Assembly: GCF_024609325.1 (NCBI RefSeq)
Contig: NZ_JANHMQ010000001.1
Location: 1,426,001 to 1,490,000 of the forward strand
DNA: 64,000 nucleotides
Direction of reading: 5' to 3'
From: Geothrix fuzhouensis
GTDB taxonomy: Bacteria > Acidobacteriota > Holophagae > Holophagales > Holophagaceae
Made by a program: the position numbers and the translations under genes. Every line of letters starts with the position of its first letter. The stretch's first letter is position 1. The notes under the pieces are model-generated. The model did not search any database. It saw only the letters and a program-made list of their open reading frames with translations, and was not told where the DNA came from. Shown here in pieces: positions 4,794-44,054 of the stretch.

Positions 4794-4844
4794 AAGCGGA
4801 GGCCAACGGATTCGTTCCATGCTTTTCTCCGCTTCCCTCCGCTT
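4794..4844. repeat. short AAGCGGAGG...CCTCCGCTT palindrome, internally deleted copy
   Basis: Begins AAGCGGAGG and ends CCCTCCGCTT, flanked on both sides by ATG. It is the deleted form of the 97-bp palindrome at 5858-5954, with the same outer ends and the same inner segment ATTCGTTCCATGC. The ends match the inverted repeats around the GxxExxY gene at 43599-44054. Confidence 0.8.
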
Positions 4845-4893
4845 ATGGATGCTTTTCAGCCCCGGACGACACCGGAGAAAAAGAGTGCGGAGC

Positions 4894-4917
4894 CACCGAT
4901 GCACACCGATAAAAGAA
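4894..4917 (+). repeat. 10-bp-period repeat, left arm of copy B
   Basis: CACCGATGCA followed by CACCGATAAA. It mirrors the inverted units at 5134-5185 on the other side of copy B, so the whole block 4894-5185 is a nested palindrome. Confidence 0.8.
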
Positions 4918-4918
4918 T

Positions 4919-5126
4919 ATTCAGCCGCTGATTCCAGTGATGACGGTGATTGCACGCCGCGGGTTTCCCGCCTGGGCCCGCCGAAGGCGGCTTCCGGCCG
5001 GGCCGGAAGGGAGCCGGGGGCGCCGTGGCCGCGCTCCCAGAAGGCACGGCGGTGGCGCCCCCGGCTCCGCCCAGGCTGCCTCGTCGCAGAGCATCACTGG
5101 ACTCACTGAAATCGGTGGCTAAAAGC
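4919..5126 (+). repeat. 208-bp palindromic repeat, copy B
   Basis: Same ends and core as copy A, with only scattered changes. It is flanked by inverted 10-bp-period repeats on both sides. The gene-free stretch 4428-5218 consists almost entirely of these repeat families; apart from them I see nothing in it. Confidence 0.9.
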
Positions 5127-5133
5127 AGTTCTG

Positions 5134-5185
5134 CTTTATCGGTGTTCATCATGCCTTTTCGGTGTTCATCGGTGTTCCCGCTTTT
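5134..5185 (-). repeat. inverted 10-bp-period repeat, right arm of copy B
   Basis: Contains TTTATCGGTGTTCATC twice with an intervening ATGCCTTTTC. This is the complement of the CACCGATGAA units left of the copy, and ends shortly before the DinB gene's 3' end at 5219. Confidence 0.8.
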
Positions 5186-5857: not shown

Positions 5858-5954
5858 AAGCGGAGGACAACGGAGGAGCTGAGGAAAGCGGAGAAAAATG
5901 GATTCGTTCCATGCTTTTCTCCGCTCTCCTCTGCCACTCCGCTTCCCTCCGCTT
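5858..5954. repeat. 97-bp AAGCGGAGG...CCTCCGCTT palindrome
   Basis: The left arm pattern AAGCGGAGG-N3-xCGGAG-N4-xGAGGA-R-AGCGGAG is mirrored by the right arm, and about 15 bases separate them. ATG flanks both outer ends. The same block pattern forms the inverted repeats of the GxxExxY locus at 43599-44054. It has no coding capacity, so it looks like a non-autonomous derivative. Confidence 0.85.
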
Positions 5955-6004
5955 ATGGATGCTTTTCAGCCCCGGGACGACACCGGAGAAAAAGAGTGCG
6001 GAGC

Positions 6005-6027
6005 CACCGATGAACACCGATAAAAGA
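6005..6027 (+). repeat. 10-bp-period repeat, left arm of copy C
   Basis: CACCGATGAA and CACCGATAAA directly left of copy C. It mirrors the inverted units at 6247-6292. Confidence 0.8.
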
Positions 6028-6029
6028 AA

Positions 6030-6236
6030 ATTCAGCCGCTGATTCCAGTGATGACGGTGATTGCGCGCCGCGGGTTTCCCGCCTGGGCCCGCCGGAGGCG
6101 GCTTCCGGCCAGGCCGGAAGGGAGCCGGGGGCGCCGTGGCCCTGCTCCCAAAAGGCACGGCGGCGGCGCCCCCGGCTCCGCCCAGGCTGCCTCGTCGCGG
6201 GGGAATCACTGAAATCACCGAAATCGGTGGCAAAAA
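6030..6236 (+). repeat. 207-bp palindromic repeat, copy C
   Basis: Same architecture as copies A and B. The compound 5858-6292 repeats 4794-5185 as a direct duplication, differing mainly by the deletion inside the short palindrome at 4794. The gene-free region 5747-6375 is otherwise empty apart from the YbaK leader. Confidence 0.9.
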
Positions 6237-6246
6237 GGCAATTCTG

Positions 6247-6292
6247 CTTTATCGGTGTTCATCAACTTTTATCGGTGTTCATCGGTGTTCCA
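6247..6292 (-). repeat. inverted 10-bp-period repeat, right arm of copy C
   Basis: Two blocks of TTTATCGGTGTTCATC in inverted orientation to the units at 6005-6027, ending about 80 bases before the YbaK-like gene. It could fold with the left arm around the entire copy C. Confidence 0.8.
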
Positions 6293-6375
6293 GCTTTGGC
6301 CTTTTGCCTCCCGCTGATGGCACCTCCAGCCTCCCGGACCCATCCTTGGGTCGCTCTCGGTCCGAGGAGGCTGCC

Positions 6376-6901: not shown

Positions 6902-7106
6902 GCCGGTGATAAACAGTGTTGAACGGTGATTGCGCGCCGCGAGTTCCCCGCATGGGCCCGCCAGAGGCGGCTTCCGGCTGGGCCGGAAGGGAACCGGGGG
7001 CGCCGTTGCCGCGCTCCCAAAAGGCACGGCGGCGGCGCCCCCGGCTCCGCCCATGCTGCCTCGTCGCAGCGAATCACTGGAATCACTGAAATCGGTGGCA
7101 AACAGC
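6902..7106 (+). repeat. about 205-bp palindromic repeat, copy D
   Basis: The core is nearly identical to copies A-C, but the left end is degenerate (GTGATAAACAGTGTTGAACGGTGATT), while the right end AATCACTGAAATCGGTGGCAAA is intact. No 10-bp-period arms flank it. Together with a small hairpin (ACCCAGGG/CCCTGGGT, 7156-7176) it fills the gene-free stretch 6832-7204. Confidence 0.88.
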
Positions 7107-7204
7107 AGTTGAGATCGACGAAACCCACGCCACGCCAGTTCAGGAATCCGCATCCACCCAGGGCCATCCCCTGGGTTGCATCGCAGGCGGGTTAACATCC
7201 CTTG

Positions 7205-11547: not shown

Positions 11548-12126
11548 ATGTCGCCCCTCGCCCGCCCCGTCGTCCGCTGGTCCCTCCTCATCGGCCTCTG
11601 GGCCCTGGTGATCGCGGTGCTGTGGATTCTGCTGGTGCAGGTCTTCCTGCTGGCCCTGAACCCCTTCTGCCACGCCCAGCGGCCGGGGGTGGCCTATGTC
11701 CAGGTGCGCAGCGTGGACCGGGATGTGGACAGCCAGATCACCGACTTTGTCACGGTGAAGCACGGCGACGCGGAACGGGTGCTGCGCCTTGCCAAAGCTG
11801 AGGCGGCGGAGCTTCGCCCGGAGGATGAGGTGTGGATCCTAGATGCGTGGTACGCGGACGGCCTGCGCCCCACCCAGTTCCGGCTCACCTTCTTGCGCGT
11901 GTTGCTGGAGTACCCGGTGCTCCTGCTGCTACCGGCCGCGTGGGGTCTCTGGTACGTGCGCAAGGCCAAGCGGAAGGCCGACGCCGCCCCACCCCCGCCC
12001 GTCCGCCGCACGTTCACCGATGACTTCCACCTCCGCGCCCAGCGCTTCGCGAAACCGGGAACCACCGACGTTGAAGGGTCCACCGACAAAGCAAATCAGC
12101 CACCGATGAACACCGATGAACACTGA
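11548..12126 (+). CDS. uncharacterised two-span membrane protein with repeat-derived tail
   Basis: A 192-residue protein with one transmembrane helix near residues 12-37, a central soluble domain of about 80 residues and a second helix near residues 112-132, then a basic stretch (RKAKRKAD) and a proline-rich tail. It looks like a DUF3592-type membrane protein, but that is only an impression. The last dozen codons (KANQPPMNTDEH) are read from the 10-bp-period repeat starting near 12101, so the natural C-terminus was probably changed by repeat insertion. Confidence 0.6.
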   Translation: MSPLARPVVRWSLLIGLWALVIAVLWILLVQVFLLALNPFCHAQRPGVAYVQVRSVDRDVDSQITDFVTVKHGDAERVLRLAKAEAAELRPEDEVWILDAWYADGLRPTQFRLTFLRVLLEYPVLLLLPAAWGLWYVRKAKRKADAAPPPPVRRTFTDDFHLRAQRFAKPGTTDVEGSTDKANQPPMNTDEH

Positions 12127-12150
12127 TGAACACTGATGAACACTGATTAA
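12101..12150 (+). repeat. five tandem 10-bp units (CACYGATGAA)
   Basis: CACCGATGAA twice, CACTGATGAA twice and CACTGATTAA follow one another without gaps. Units of this type flank the 208-bp palindromes elsewhere in the window. Here they overlap the 3' end of the preceding gene and provide its stop codon. Confidence 0.9.
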
Positions 12151-12216
12151 AAGCTGATAAGAGCTGGAGAACCCGGTTAAAAGCTGAACCTGCAGATGGC
12201 ACAGAAAAGGCCTTGG

Positions 12217-12434
12217 ATCCACAGATTCCATGGATTCACACAGATTAGAGCGGAAGCCGGGTTCCATTTGGGGAGTGTGCTTCGTGAACATGCGCTCCAG
12301 CGGGGGCGCCAGGGTCGTGCCTTTTCGGAGGGCGCGGGCCTGGCGCCCCCACGGACCTCCGGCAGGGCCGGAGGCCGCCTTCGGCGGGCCCATGTATGTT
12401 GGGTCGGGGCCCATCAGTGAAAATCCGTGGTTCC
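12217..12434 (-). repeat. palindromic repeat, divergent copy E
   Basis: Read on the minus strand, the core CATGGGCCCGCCGAAGGCGG, a GGGGGCGCC box and an AAAAGGCACG box match copies A-D in order. The ends differ: CCACAGATTCCATGGATTCA at the left on the plus strand and ATCAGTGAAAATCCGTGG at the right. It is thus a related subfamily with changed termini. Together with the arms at 12101 and 12491 it accounts for the gene-free stretch 12127-12564. Confidence 0.7.
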
Positions 12435-12490
12435 AACCTTTTGGTCTTATAAAGCATCGGGCTGAGGTTCAACGGTACTGTAGGTCATTC

Positions 12491-12515
12491 TTTTATCGGT
12501 GTACATCGGTGGTTC
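12491..12515 (-). repeat. inverted 10-bp-period repeat
   Basis: TTTTATCGGTGTACATCGGTGG is the complement of the CACCGATGAA units at 12101-12150, so copy E is again bracketed by inverted arms. Confidence 0.75.
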
Positions 12516-41039: not shown

Positions 41040-43564
41040 GTTCGGTCCTTTTGCTTCATCGCCAACCAGTTCAGGGCCTCCAGCGGCGTCATGCGGCTGA
41101 GGTCCAGGGCTTCCAGCTCGCCGCGCAGCGCATCCGGCTCAACCTCGAACAACGGCAGGGCGGGTTGTGAGGGCATGGGCGCCCGGGGTGGGGCTTCGGG
41201 TGCCTGGGCCAGGAGGCGCTGAGCCTTCTGGATGACGGATTTCGGAAGGCCGGCCAGCCGCGCCACCTGGATGCCATAGCTGCGGTCCGCGGGGCCCGGC
41301 GCCACGCGATGGAGGAAGTGCAGCTGCTCCTCCCACTCCTGCACTTCCACGTGGAGGTTCTGGATGCGGGCGTCGTCCGCGAGCTTCGTCATCTCGAAGT
41401 AGTGGGTGGCGAACAGCGTCCGCGGCGCGCCGCCCTTCAGGTCGCGGAGGAACACGGCGATGGCTTCGGCCAGCGCCAAGCCGTCCCGCGTGGAGGTACC
41501 CCGGCCGATCTCGTCCAGGATCACCAGGCTGGCGGCGGTGGCCTGGTTGAGGATGCGCGCGGTCTCCGTCATCTCCACCATGAAGGTGGACTGGCCCTTG
41601 GCCAGCTGGTCCGAGGCGCCGATGCGCGTGAAGATGCGGTCCACCAGGCCGAAGCGCATGAGCTCCCCGGGCACGAAGGAGCCCGTCTGGGCCAGCACCA
41701 CCAGGAGGGCCGCCGTGCGCAGGAAGGTGGACTTGCCGCCCATGTTGGGGCCCGTGACCACCGCCATGGGCTGGGCCGCGCTGAACTGCAGATCATTGGG
41801 AATGCACTCGCGGCCGAGGCGCGCCTCCAGCATGGGGTGACGGGCGGAGGCCAGCACCAGCTCGCGGTCCTCGCCCAGCTCGGGCCGGGTCCAGCCCGAG
41901 AGCCGCGCCCGCTCTGCCAGCGCCGCCAACACGTCCAGGGCGGCCACGGCGCGGGCGAGGCGCGTGAGGTCCGCGCGATGTTCCAGCACCAGGGCCAGCA
42001 GGCGCTGGAACTGGATGCCTTCCAGGCGCCCCTGGTCGCTCTCGGCGCTGAGGAGCCGCTGCTCGAAGGCCACCAGCTTCTCCGTGGTGAAGCGCTCGGC
42101 GTTGGCCAGGGTCTGCTTGCGCAGGAAGTGTGCGGGCACGGCGCCCAGGTTGGACTTGGTGATCTCGAAGTAGTACCCGAAGACCCGGTTGTACTTGATC
42201 TTCAGGCTGTTGATGCCGGAGGCGGCGCGTTCCTCCTCCTCGAGGTCCAGCATCACCTGCTTGGCGTCCCGGGCCAGGCGGCGTACAGCGTCCAGCTCTG
42301 CGTCCACCCCTTCGCGGACAACCCCACCCTTCTCCAGGTCCAGCGGGGGTGCCTCGGCGAGGCAGCGCTGAAGTTCCGTGAGCAGCGGCGTGCAGAGGGG
42401 CGTGTCGCCCGGCCATAGGCCAAGCTCCCCCACCTCGGAGGCCCAGCCCTCGTCCTGGATCCGTGCGGGCAGCTTCTGGAGCACGGCCAGGCCCTCGCGG
42501 AGCTGGGCCAGTTCCGGCGGCGTCGCCAGGCTCAGGGCCACGCGGCCCAGCAGGCGATCCAGATCCGGCACCTGGCCCAGCAGGGTCTGGATGGGTGTGC
42601 GGCGGCGATCCTCTGTGAGCCAGGCCACCTGGGACCAGCGGCGCTCCAGGGCTGCGCGGTCCCTCAGAGGCTGCTCCAGCCAAGCCTTCAGCAATCGGGA
42701 ACCCAGGCGCGTACGGCACTGGTCCAGCAAGGCCAGCAGCGAGCCCGCACGGCCGCCGTCCAAGCCGTTGGCCAGCACTTCCAGGTGCCGGGCGCTGGTG
42801 GCGTCCAGCAGCGGGCCCGCCGCGCCCAGCTCCAGAGAGACGCCCTGAAGGTGCGCGGGGCGGCCTTTCTGAGTGGCCTCCACGTGGTCCAGCAGCGCCG
42901 CCAGGGCGCCGAGCGCGGCCGGATAGGGATCGAGGCCCACGCCTTCCAGGTGCTGCCAGCCGAAGAAGGCCAGCACCTGCTGCTTCGCGCGCGAGGGCTC
43001 GAAGCGCCAGGCAGGCAGGCGCGTGCGGGCGGCCTCAAGCTCGTGGATGTCCTCGGCGCCTTCCGCCAGGATCAGTTCCTGGGGACCAAGGCGCTCCAGG
43101 GTGGCTCGCAGGGCTTCCTCGCCCTCGCCCGGCAACACCCGCAGTGCGCCGGAGGCCAGCTGCAGCAGGGCCAGGCCCCACATCGATCCAGCACGGTGGA
43201 GCGCGCACAGCCAGCGGGCGTCATCATCCAGCCAGGTGCCGGGCGTGATGATGCGCTTGATGGCACGAGGCAAGAGGCCCTTGACCTCCTCGGCCTTGGC
43301 CGTGGGCTCGGCGATGGCCGCGGAGAAGCCCGCCGCCAGCAGCTTAGGGAGGTAGGACTCCAGGGCAAAGTGGGGCACGCCGCACATGGGCGTCTCGGAT
43401 TCGGAGCCCTTGCCGCGGAGCGTGAGCGCGATCTCCAGCACCGGTGCCGCCCGCACGGCATCCTCGCCCAGGATCTCGTAGAAGTCCCCCATCCGCGTGA
43501 GCAGCACGGCCTCCCCCGCCTCGCGCTTGAGGCCGGCGATCTGCTGCAGCATCGGGGTGGACAT
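41036..43564 (-). CDS. mutS: DNA mismatch repair protein MutS
   Basis: An 842-residue MutS that recognises base mismatches and small loops. The mismatch-binding domain I contains LLTRMGDFYEILGEDAV with the GDFYE of the Phe-x-Glu wedge; the connector, lever and clamp follow. The ATPase carries VVTGPNMGGKSTFLRTAALLV, ILDEIGRGTSTRDGLALAEAI and FATHYFEMTKLADD. The start at 43564 is MSTPMLQQIAGLKREAGE; a longer frame reaches into the inverted repeat beside the GxxExxY gene. The gene precedes, and overlaps, a PNPOx gene. Confidence 0.97.
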   Translation of the reverse strand: MSTPMLQQIAGLKREAGEAVLLTRMGDFYEILGEDAVRAAPVLEIALTLRGKGSESETPMCGVPHFALESYLPKLLAAGFSAAIAEPTAKAEEVKGLLPRAIKRIITPGTWLDDDARWLCALHRAGSMWGLALLQLASGALRVLPGEGEEALRATLERLGPQELILAEGAEDIHELEAARTRLPAWRFEPSRAKQQVLAFFGWQHLEGVGLDPYPAALGALAALLDHVEATQKGRPAHLQGVSLELGAAGPLLDATSARHLEVLANGLDGGRAGSLLALLDQCRTRLGSRLLKAWLEQPLRDRAALERRWSQVAWLTEDRRRTPIQTLLGQVPDLDRLLGRVALSLATPPELAQLREGLAVLQKLPARIQDEGWASEVGELGLWPGDTPLCTPLLTELQRCLAEAPPLDLEKGGVVREGVDAELDAVRRLARDAKQVMLDLEEEERAASGINSLKIKYNRVFGYYFEITKSNLGAVPAHFLRKQTLANAERFTTEKLVAFEQRLLSAESDQGRLEGIQFQRLLALVLEHRADLTRLARAVAALDVLAALAERARLSGWTRPELGEDRELVLASARHPMLEARLGRECIPNDLQFSAAQPMAVVTGPNMGGKSTFLRTAALLVVLAQTGSFVPGELMRFGLVDRIFTRIGASDQLAKGQSTFMVEMTETARILNQATAASLVILDEIGRGTSTRDGLALAEAIAVFLRDLKGGAPRTLFATHYFEMTKLADDARIQNLHVEVQEWEEQLHFLHRVAPGPADRSYGIQVARLAGLPKSVIQKAQRLLAQAPEAPPRAPMPSQPALPLFEVEPDALRGELEALDLSRMTPLEALNWLAMKQKDRT

Positions 43565-43596
43565 GGGGGTCGTTCCTTGAAGAAAAGAAATATGAA

Positions 43597-44037
43597 TTAA
43601 GCGGAGGGTTGCGGAGGGACGGAGGAGAGCGGAGGAACCCTGGAGTTCAAGATGCGTTTGATCCCACCGTCCCTCATGGGCCACCGCCAGAAATTCAGCA
43701 GGAAACCGATTCGTTTTGAAGAACAGCGAAGGTAGGTAAGGAGCTGCGCTTCGTGAAAATCGGTGAGGTGGTCGACGGTCTTCAGCTCCAACACGATTTG
43801 ATCTTCCACCAGCAGATCCAATCTGTACGCGACAGGCACCCGTAGATCCTCGTAGGTGATCCCGATCGGCGCCTGGCGCTCAACTCTCAGACCGGCCTTC
43901 TCAAGCTCGTAATTCAGGCAGGCCTCGTAGGCGCTTTCCAGCAGTCCGGGCCCCAAGGCCCGTTGGACCTTGATTGCACAACCCAAGATGATCTCCGTAA
44001 GGGATGCCCATTCGAGATCTCCGCTTTCCTCCACCAC
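43597..44037 (-). CDS. GxxExxY family protein (PD-(D/E)XK nuclease-like)
   Basis: A 146-residue protein of the GxxExxY family. The name motif is GLLESAYE (residues 33-40). [23 protein letters not shown] has the D...ExK core expected of a PD-(D/E)XK nuclease. The family has no proven function. Both ends of the frame are formed by the inverted repeat: the N-terminal MVEESGDLE region and the C-terminal [15 protein letters not shown] tail are read from the left and right copies of the AAGCGGAGG repeat. The element therefore consists almost entirely of this gene. Confidence 0.85.
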
Positions 44038-44054
44038 TCTGCTTTCCTCCGCTT
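43599..44054. mobile_element. candidate GxxExxY element with about 36-bp terminal inverted repeats
   Basis: Left end AAGCGGAGG-N3-GCGGAG-N4-GGAGGA-G-AGCGGAG (43599-43634) and the complement of the right end (44019-44054), AAGCGGAGG-N3-GCAGAG-N4-GGAGGA-A-AGCGGAG, match in all conserved blocks. The ORF stop codon overlaps the outermost left bases. The same block order makes up both arms of the 97-bp palindrome at 5858-5954. No clear target duplication is visible. That the protein moves the element is an inference. Confidence 0.6.

Follow-up and report, generated by a model that had tools for sequence, protein, structure and literature searches.

A predicted GxxExxY nuclease gene lies between inverted iteron arrays in Geothrix and probably forms a mobile element with gene-less palindromes

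In Geothrix fuzhouensis (contig NZ_JANHMQ010000001.1, positions 1,426,001 to 1,490,000; this whole stretch of 64,000 nucleotides is the window), a small gene of the GxxExxY family lies between two inverted repeats, and the blocks that build these repeats recur in gene-less palindromes of the same stretch. The features concerned are the following:

43597..44037, minus strand: GxxExxY gene, 146 aa; GTG start within the right arm, final 12 codons within the left arm; TIGR04256 133.6 bits, PF13366 129.7 bits
43599..43636, plus strand: left terminal inverted repeat with four GCGGAG-type iterons; sequence AAGCGGAGGGTTGCGGAGGGACGGAGGAGAGCGGAGGA
44019..44054, minus strand: right terminal inverted repeat; reverse complement AAGCGGAGGAAAGCAGAGTGGTGGAGGAAAGCGGAG; 28/36 positions match the left arm
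43580..43598, plus strand: A-rich stretch outside the left arm, a possible element end
5858..5954, no strand: solo palindrome of the window iteron type, both arms, gene-less; among 12 pattern matches in the genome
4794..4844, no strand: solo palindrome in shortened form; shares a duplicated composite repeat with the solo at 5858

The first-pass annotation of this DNA had described the frame as bounded by inverted repeats of about 36 bp that share their pattern with the two palindromes, and this description holds: the arms are about 36 bp long and composed of iterons of about 9-10 bp, their 36-bp inverted-repeat alignment scores 18.4 (the identity of 28/36 is derived from that score), and the same blocks are present at 5858-5954 and, in shortened form, at 4794-4844. 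It had further proposed that the first and last codons of the protein are read from the repeats. For the end of the gene this is correct, since the left arm supplies the final 12 codons as well as the first stop-codon base; for the start it is plausible, given an in-frame GTG within the right arm, 36 nt ahead of the domain, which is kept in 6 of 8 examined copies of the window type.

The protein is a member of both the TIGR04256 GxxExxY family and PF13366 (PDDEXK_3), with scores above the curated cut-offs of 35 and 22 bits, respectively. Across 76 aligned GxxExxY sequences, E34, D74, K86 and Q98 are invariant and G31, Y37, E84 and Y102 nearly so (E84 in 90% or more). The D, ExK and Q-motif residues and the core fold that define the PD-(D/E)XK superfamily are all found in the window protein, and its structure model (predicted local distance difference test score, pLDDT, 89.3) matches solved structures that include, among the best ranked, PD-(D/E)XK-fold nucleases. 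A sequence search of the PDB with the window protein returned no credible relative (best E 0.22). The protein is predicted to be a Cas4/RecB-like PD-(D/E)XK nuclease core; compared with the Cas4 nuclease SSO0001 (4ic1), it is shorter (146 versus 202 residues) and the Foldseek E is only 2.6e-2, and unlike Cas4/RecB-type nucleases the GxxExxY gene is found alone between iteron arms. Searches of open-licence PubMed Central (PMC) full text found no described role for GxxExxY proteins, whose name rests on a motif only, and listed no title or abstract that ties such a protein to repeats.

The arrangement recurs throughout the genus. TIGR04256 matches occur in 40 of 47 sampled genomes, summing to 163, six of them in the window's own 3.32-Mb genome (G000); 149 of the 163 loci were read, so that a few gene holders may be overlooked, and 146 had flanks of 100 bp or more on each side (3/149 were dropped for short flanks). 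At a threshold score of at least 16, a strong inverted repeat spans the flanks of 122 of these 146 genes, versus 45 of 730 mismatched-flank pairs; in the first 71 loci the count is 65, against 24/426 mismatched and 0/284 shuffled pairs. The median span from arm to arm is 475 bp. Most arms consist of similar units of 6-8 bases in an array, and in 223 of the 244 arms the best internal period is 8, 9 or 10; the unit varies from gene to gene: GCGGAGG, CGCGAATG, CGCAGATG, CACAGATT, CACCAAG, CGCCAAG, CACGGAG, CACCGAT, ACAGGATT and more, the window's AAGCGGAGG type being one among many. On the outer side, an A-rich pentamer is present within 22 bp of 100 of 222 genus arms, compared with 13 of 639 background windows. 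An arm that reaches into the end of its gene is seen in only 31 of the 122 genus genes and is hence not general. At four loci (L045, L048, L063 and L080) the best inverted repeat around the gene consists of long GC-rich hairpins, not of plain iteron arrays.

The GxxExxY protein and its iteron diverge in parallel, the iteron following the protein tree. Over 65 loci (the first 71 minus six that lack a strong inverted repeat; the 78 read afterwards lie outside this test and the pair counts below), protein identity correlates with arm similarity (Mantel r 0.584; 0/5000 permutations). Orthologous-site pairs with a protein identity of at least 0.7 share the arm sequence in a fraction of 0.89 of 65, and pairs at different sites do so in 13 of 20 at the same identity, in 6% of 126 between 0.6 and 0.7, and in 0.00 of 1,852 below 0.6; this sharing between different sites means that common ancestry of the site cannot account for all of the correlation. 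The switch can be followed at one orthologous locus, where the arms are CGCAGATG in G025, G026 and G032 and of the CACAGATT type in G015, G030, G034 and G035, both arms having changed together. The protein tree, for which iteron types were assigned by reading the arm sequences (as they were for the junction matching and for the own-arm, cross-phylum and target-duplication tests below), splits the holders of these two types into the same two groups with a support of 0.999, three extra genes (G031; G016 and G042) being assigned solely from their arm type and protein. The CACCAAG, CGCCAAG and CACGAAG-CAGGAAG proteins form type-specific groups as well, with supports of 0.83, 0.88 and 0.999, and CGCGAAA proteins split from CGCGAATG proteins with a support of 1.0.

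A genome-wide search for the palindrome, as had been suggested, gives 12 matches to AAGCGGAGGNNNGCGGAG in the window's genome and none to the reversed control. The independent solos are fewer than 12, since the two in the window are located in two copies of a composite of about 400 bp (4794-5184 and 5886-6297, 88% identical) and another five matches belong to a second near-identical composite. Composite repeats of several palindrome types, at 4794-5184, 5886-6297 and 6914-7111, are about 88-92% identical to one another and resemble bacterial mosaic elements; a further palindrome family in the window consists of CACCGAT-type inverted iteron pairs (6005-6271 and 12101-12495) set in nested, composite repeats without a GxxExxY gene. 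An Rfam scan for a known RNA family behind the palindromes gave no match anywhere in the window at gathering scores.

Across the 47 genomes, reversed-pattern controls yield no match for CGCGAATG and CGCAGATG, two for CACCAAG, and 18 (versus 127 true) for AAGCGGAGGNNNGCGGAG, which means that counts of one or two AAGCGGAGGNNNGCGGAG matches per genome may be chance. The first-pass annotation had asked whether palindrome number correlates with GxxExxY genes, and arrays are in fact more numerous in genomes that hold the gene of the same type: the area under the curve (AUC) is 0.90 for GCGGAGG (10 holders), 0.97 for CGCGAATG (5), 0.85 for CGCAGATG (4) and 0.96 for CACCAAG (7). The true pairing of gene and iteron ranks first of the 24 possible, and none of 20,000 joint permutations equals it. 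With four own-arm matches subtracted throughout, p is 0.048 for GCGGAGG, 0.0019 for CGCGAATG, 0.019 for CGCAGATG and 8.6e-5 for CACCAAG, and for GCGGAGG with the actual own-arm matches (one or two) removed it is 4.6e-4. The four genomes richest in CGCGAATG arrays (52, 32, 19 and 19) are all gene holders, and the fifth holder has 4.

Orthologous loci could be compared both for the gene and for the solos. The anchor for the gene is its neighbour in the window:

43007..43564, minus strand: mutS 5' end; found in 45/47 genus genomes

The AAGCGGAGG gene lies upstream of mutS in G000, G001, G005, G027, G030 (where the start appears out of frame), G032 and G046, and three further copies bring the total to ten genomes: that of G004 is frameshifted, that of G033 was seen in part, and that of G040 is placed by coordinates and locus L259. 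G029 retains the two arms and the final codons and has lost the middle of the gene. In G002, G003, G008, G014, G025 and G034 the site is empty between the same two genes, in G009 and G015 it is occupied by a CACAGAT solo, of another type than the gene, and elsewhere the neighbour differs. A gene at fixed positions with no empty site in related strains had been named as a sign against mobility; here the gene type is fixed upstream of mutS in ten genomes, yet the site is empty in others. The G004 copy (L101), a frameshifted gene between both its arms, is likely a stage of decay.

For the solos, a junction that we take to be sufB-sufC from reading the protein ends was read in 39 of the 47 genomes (second query matches, for example in G013, G025, G029, G035, G041 and G045, were left out): 30 hold a solo and 9 are empty, with a gap of 14 or 29 bp. 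At least nine palindrome types, counted by eye, occupy it across species, and the solo is of the type of a resident gene in 13 of 30 (5.2 expected; 2/20,000 shuffles), one of the 13 (G037) through a loose motif. The junction (L288-L317 and L348-L357) may be a hotspot, or one type may have been replaced in place by another. At a second junction, with 30 loci fetched and 28 parsed (all except those of G009 and G033), seven are filled: G001, G005 and G014 with GCGGAGG, G031 and G032 with a CACGGAT type, and G029 and G041 with other types; the rest are short. Type matching there (4/7) is not significant, 2,181 of 20,000 shuffles reaching it. Filled sites carry additional DNA beyond the palindrome, and in G001 (L274) a CGCGAATG palindrome is broken up by other repeats.

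GxxExxY loci are also found far outside the genus. In a set of species genomes scanned with one peptide pattern, from which the best 80 of 574 loci were taken (3/80 dropped for short flanks), they come from Bacteroidota, Ignavibacteria, Chlorobi, Chloroflexi, Verrucomicrobia, Planctomycetes, Acidobacteria, Spirochaetes, Gemmatimonadetes, Proteobacteria and others, with one contig binned as archaeal. An inverted repeat flanks 40 of the 77 loci, versus 11/308 mismatched and 0/308 shuffled pairs; most of these 40 are, by eye, iteron arrays with ACAGAG, GCAGAG, ACGGAG or GCAAAG units, and at least three (L127, L153 and L174) are not. Of the genomes with these 40 loci, 28 contain CACAGAG arrays (1,066 matches in all versus 47 for the reversed control), the richest (373) holding a CACAGAG gene, and CGCAAAG arrays give 396 matches versus 12, the richest genome (129) again being a holder. 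On plasmids, relatives of the gene are rare (8/72,556 records).

Taken together, the architecture, its recurrence with many iteron types, the co-divergence of the protein with its iteron, the surplus of same-type arrays in gene holders, the filled and empty sites and the deletion derivative argue for a reading that we consider probable: together with its pair of inverted repeats, the GxxExxY gene makes up an autonomous mobile element, and the predicted nuclease would recognise these repeats and spread gene-less solo palindromes. The earlier proposal of an autonomous element with non-autonomous derivatives thereby gains support from the G029 deletion copy, the filled and empty solo sites and the array counts that follow the gene; the solos would most likely be relatives of the GxxExxY element that lack its gene. 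As to mechanism, we hypothesize that the protein, probably as a dimer, would bind the 3-4 iterons of each arm and cut beside the palindrome, near the A-rich ends; the excised or copied palindrome could then be joined by host repair into intergenic gaps, without target duplication.

In organisation, the closest analogue is the REP-associated tyrosine transposase (RAYT) with its repetitive extragenic palindromes (REP), although the enzymes are unrelated. RAYTs were recognised by evidence of this kind, a gene between two inverted REPs and cognate palindromes in the genome. A RAYT / TnpA-REP unit (REPtron) likewise consists of a single small nuclease gene with a palindromic repeat in inverted orientation on either side, has further copies of these repeats dispersed in intergenic positions, and shows a protein that diverges together with its repeat (PMC2817692, PMC8266576). 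Two hallmarks of a REPtron are present here, namely a gene between inverted copies of a dispersed repeat (122/146 genes, with arrays of four types dispersed) and repeat-protein co-divergence (the Mantel correlation and protein groups that follow arm type). A GTAG-type tag is not: GTAG occurs in 4 of 244 arms, 10 bp outside included. A REP is a single GTAG-tagged hairpin whereas each GxxExxY arm has 3-4 iterons, and RAYT is an HUH Y1 tyrosine enzyme whereas GxxExxY is PD-(D/E)XK; the GxxExxY system works like a REPtron and is not one, having neither HUH enzyme nor GTAG tag. A search for the Y1 transposase (PF01797) gave no match in 42 of the 47 genus genomes, G000 included, and RAYT/Y1 was accordingly rejected as the mobiliser of the palindromes. 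Like the miniature inverted-repeat transposable elements of DDE transposons, the short gene-less derivatives keep the arms of the autonomous element; unlike in that case, GxxExxY is not a DDE transposase and no target-site duplication signal was found.

Several observations weigh against the mobile-element reading. Arrays and genes do not always coincide: G011 has 10 GCGGAGG matches and G023 has 92 CACCAAG arrays with no GxxExxY match in either (assemblies 86% and 58% complete). An equal frequency of palindromes in genomes lacking the gene had been named as a refutation; the frequency is not equal, but palindromes are present in such genomes. G000 itself has 52 CACCAAG and 32 CGCAGATG arrays and no gene of such type among its six, and CGCAGATG arrays peak in two non-holders, G024 (47) and G016 (38). 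Type specificity is not clean either, the holders of the CGCGAATG gene being also rich in GCGGAGG (AUC 0.92; 4/5 carry both genes). The sampled genomes are kin, which means that counts are not independent, and the statistics ignore this kinship. Across phyla, with one gene typed per genome, the link between gene and arrays is weak for CACAGAG (p 0.036) and not supported for CGCAAAG (p 0.29). The comparison of orthologous loci that had been proposed did find filled and empty sites. A separate test for target duplication, on 108 elements (those with a score below 18 or less than 25 bp outside being excluded), found none: the direct repeats beyond the arms stand at 4.20 versus 4.16 for mismatched pairs (p 0.22), in a test weakened by imprecise element ends. 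Finally, many GxxExxY genes are located at a shared orthologous place in each of several species, which suggests that movement of the gene itself is rare.

Some of these observations would suit a passenger, that is, a GxxExxY gene inside one of the palindromes, which would be spread by another enzyme or by host replication and repair: palindromes do occur in genomes without the matching gene, and neither a target duplication nor a cleavage site has been identified. We regard this as unlikely, because protein and iteron co-diverge, same-type array counts track the gene, and Y1 transposases have no match in 42 of the 47 genus genomes. Less probable still is a protein that binds iterons as an autoregulator or in repair or defence, with solos acting as regulatory or mRNA-structure elements under selection. 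The retention of gene copies at orthologous sites and the palindrome at the sufB-sufC junction of 30/39 genomes are compatible with such a role; against it stand the existence of empty sites, the invariance of the nuclease residues D74, K86 and Q98 and the variation by species of the palindrome type at a same junction, unlike a conserved protein-binding site. I-Ssp6803I is a PD-(D/E)XK homing endonuclease, and with such enzymes the GxxExxY element shares a small PD-(D/E)XK nuclease as the sole gene of the mobile unit; it differs in that no intron host is seen and that its cognate repeats are dispersed genome-wide. In a homing-type process, the nuclease would cleave alleles of its site that are empty and recombination would then copy it there; spread between strains would be allelic only and the solos would be decayed remnants. 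Such a process is very improbable, for although the AAGCGGAGG type upstream of mutS in ten genomes with the same place empty in others, and many other orthologous placements, fit it, homing alone does not give same-type genes and arrays at many different places.

The autonomous-element reading has a wider form, which we favour somewhat less firmly: GxxExxY genes may establish a class of mobile DNA that is new, in which a single PD-(D/E)XK nuclease sits between iteron arrays and each nuclease lineage has an iteron code of its own; this class would spread palindromes in many bacterial phyla and be the source of many unexplained CACAGAG- and CGCAAAG-type intergenic repeats of environmental genomes. 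The data link GxxExxY proteins to families of intergenic palindromes and supply matched natural pairs of protein and iteron, with which DNA recognition, cutting and spreading are open to direct testing. If the reading is true, RAYT-REP would gain an independent counterpart built on another nuclease fold, one frequent origin of the intergenic hairpins of environmental bacteria would be accounted for, and a small nuclease with a readable, evolving DNA specificity would be available for study.
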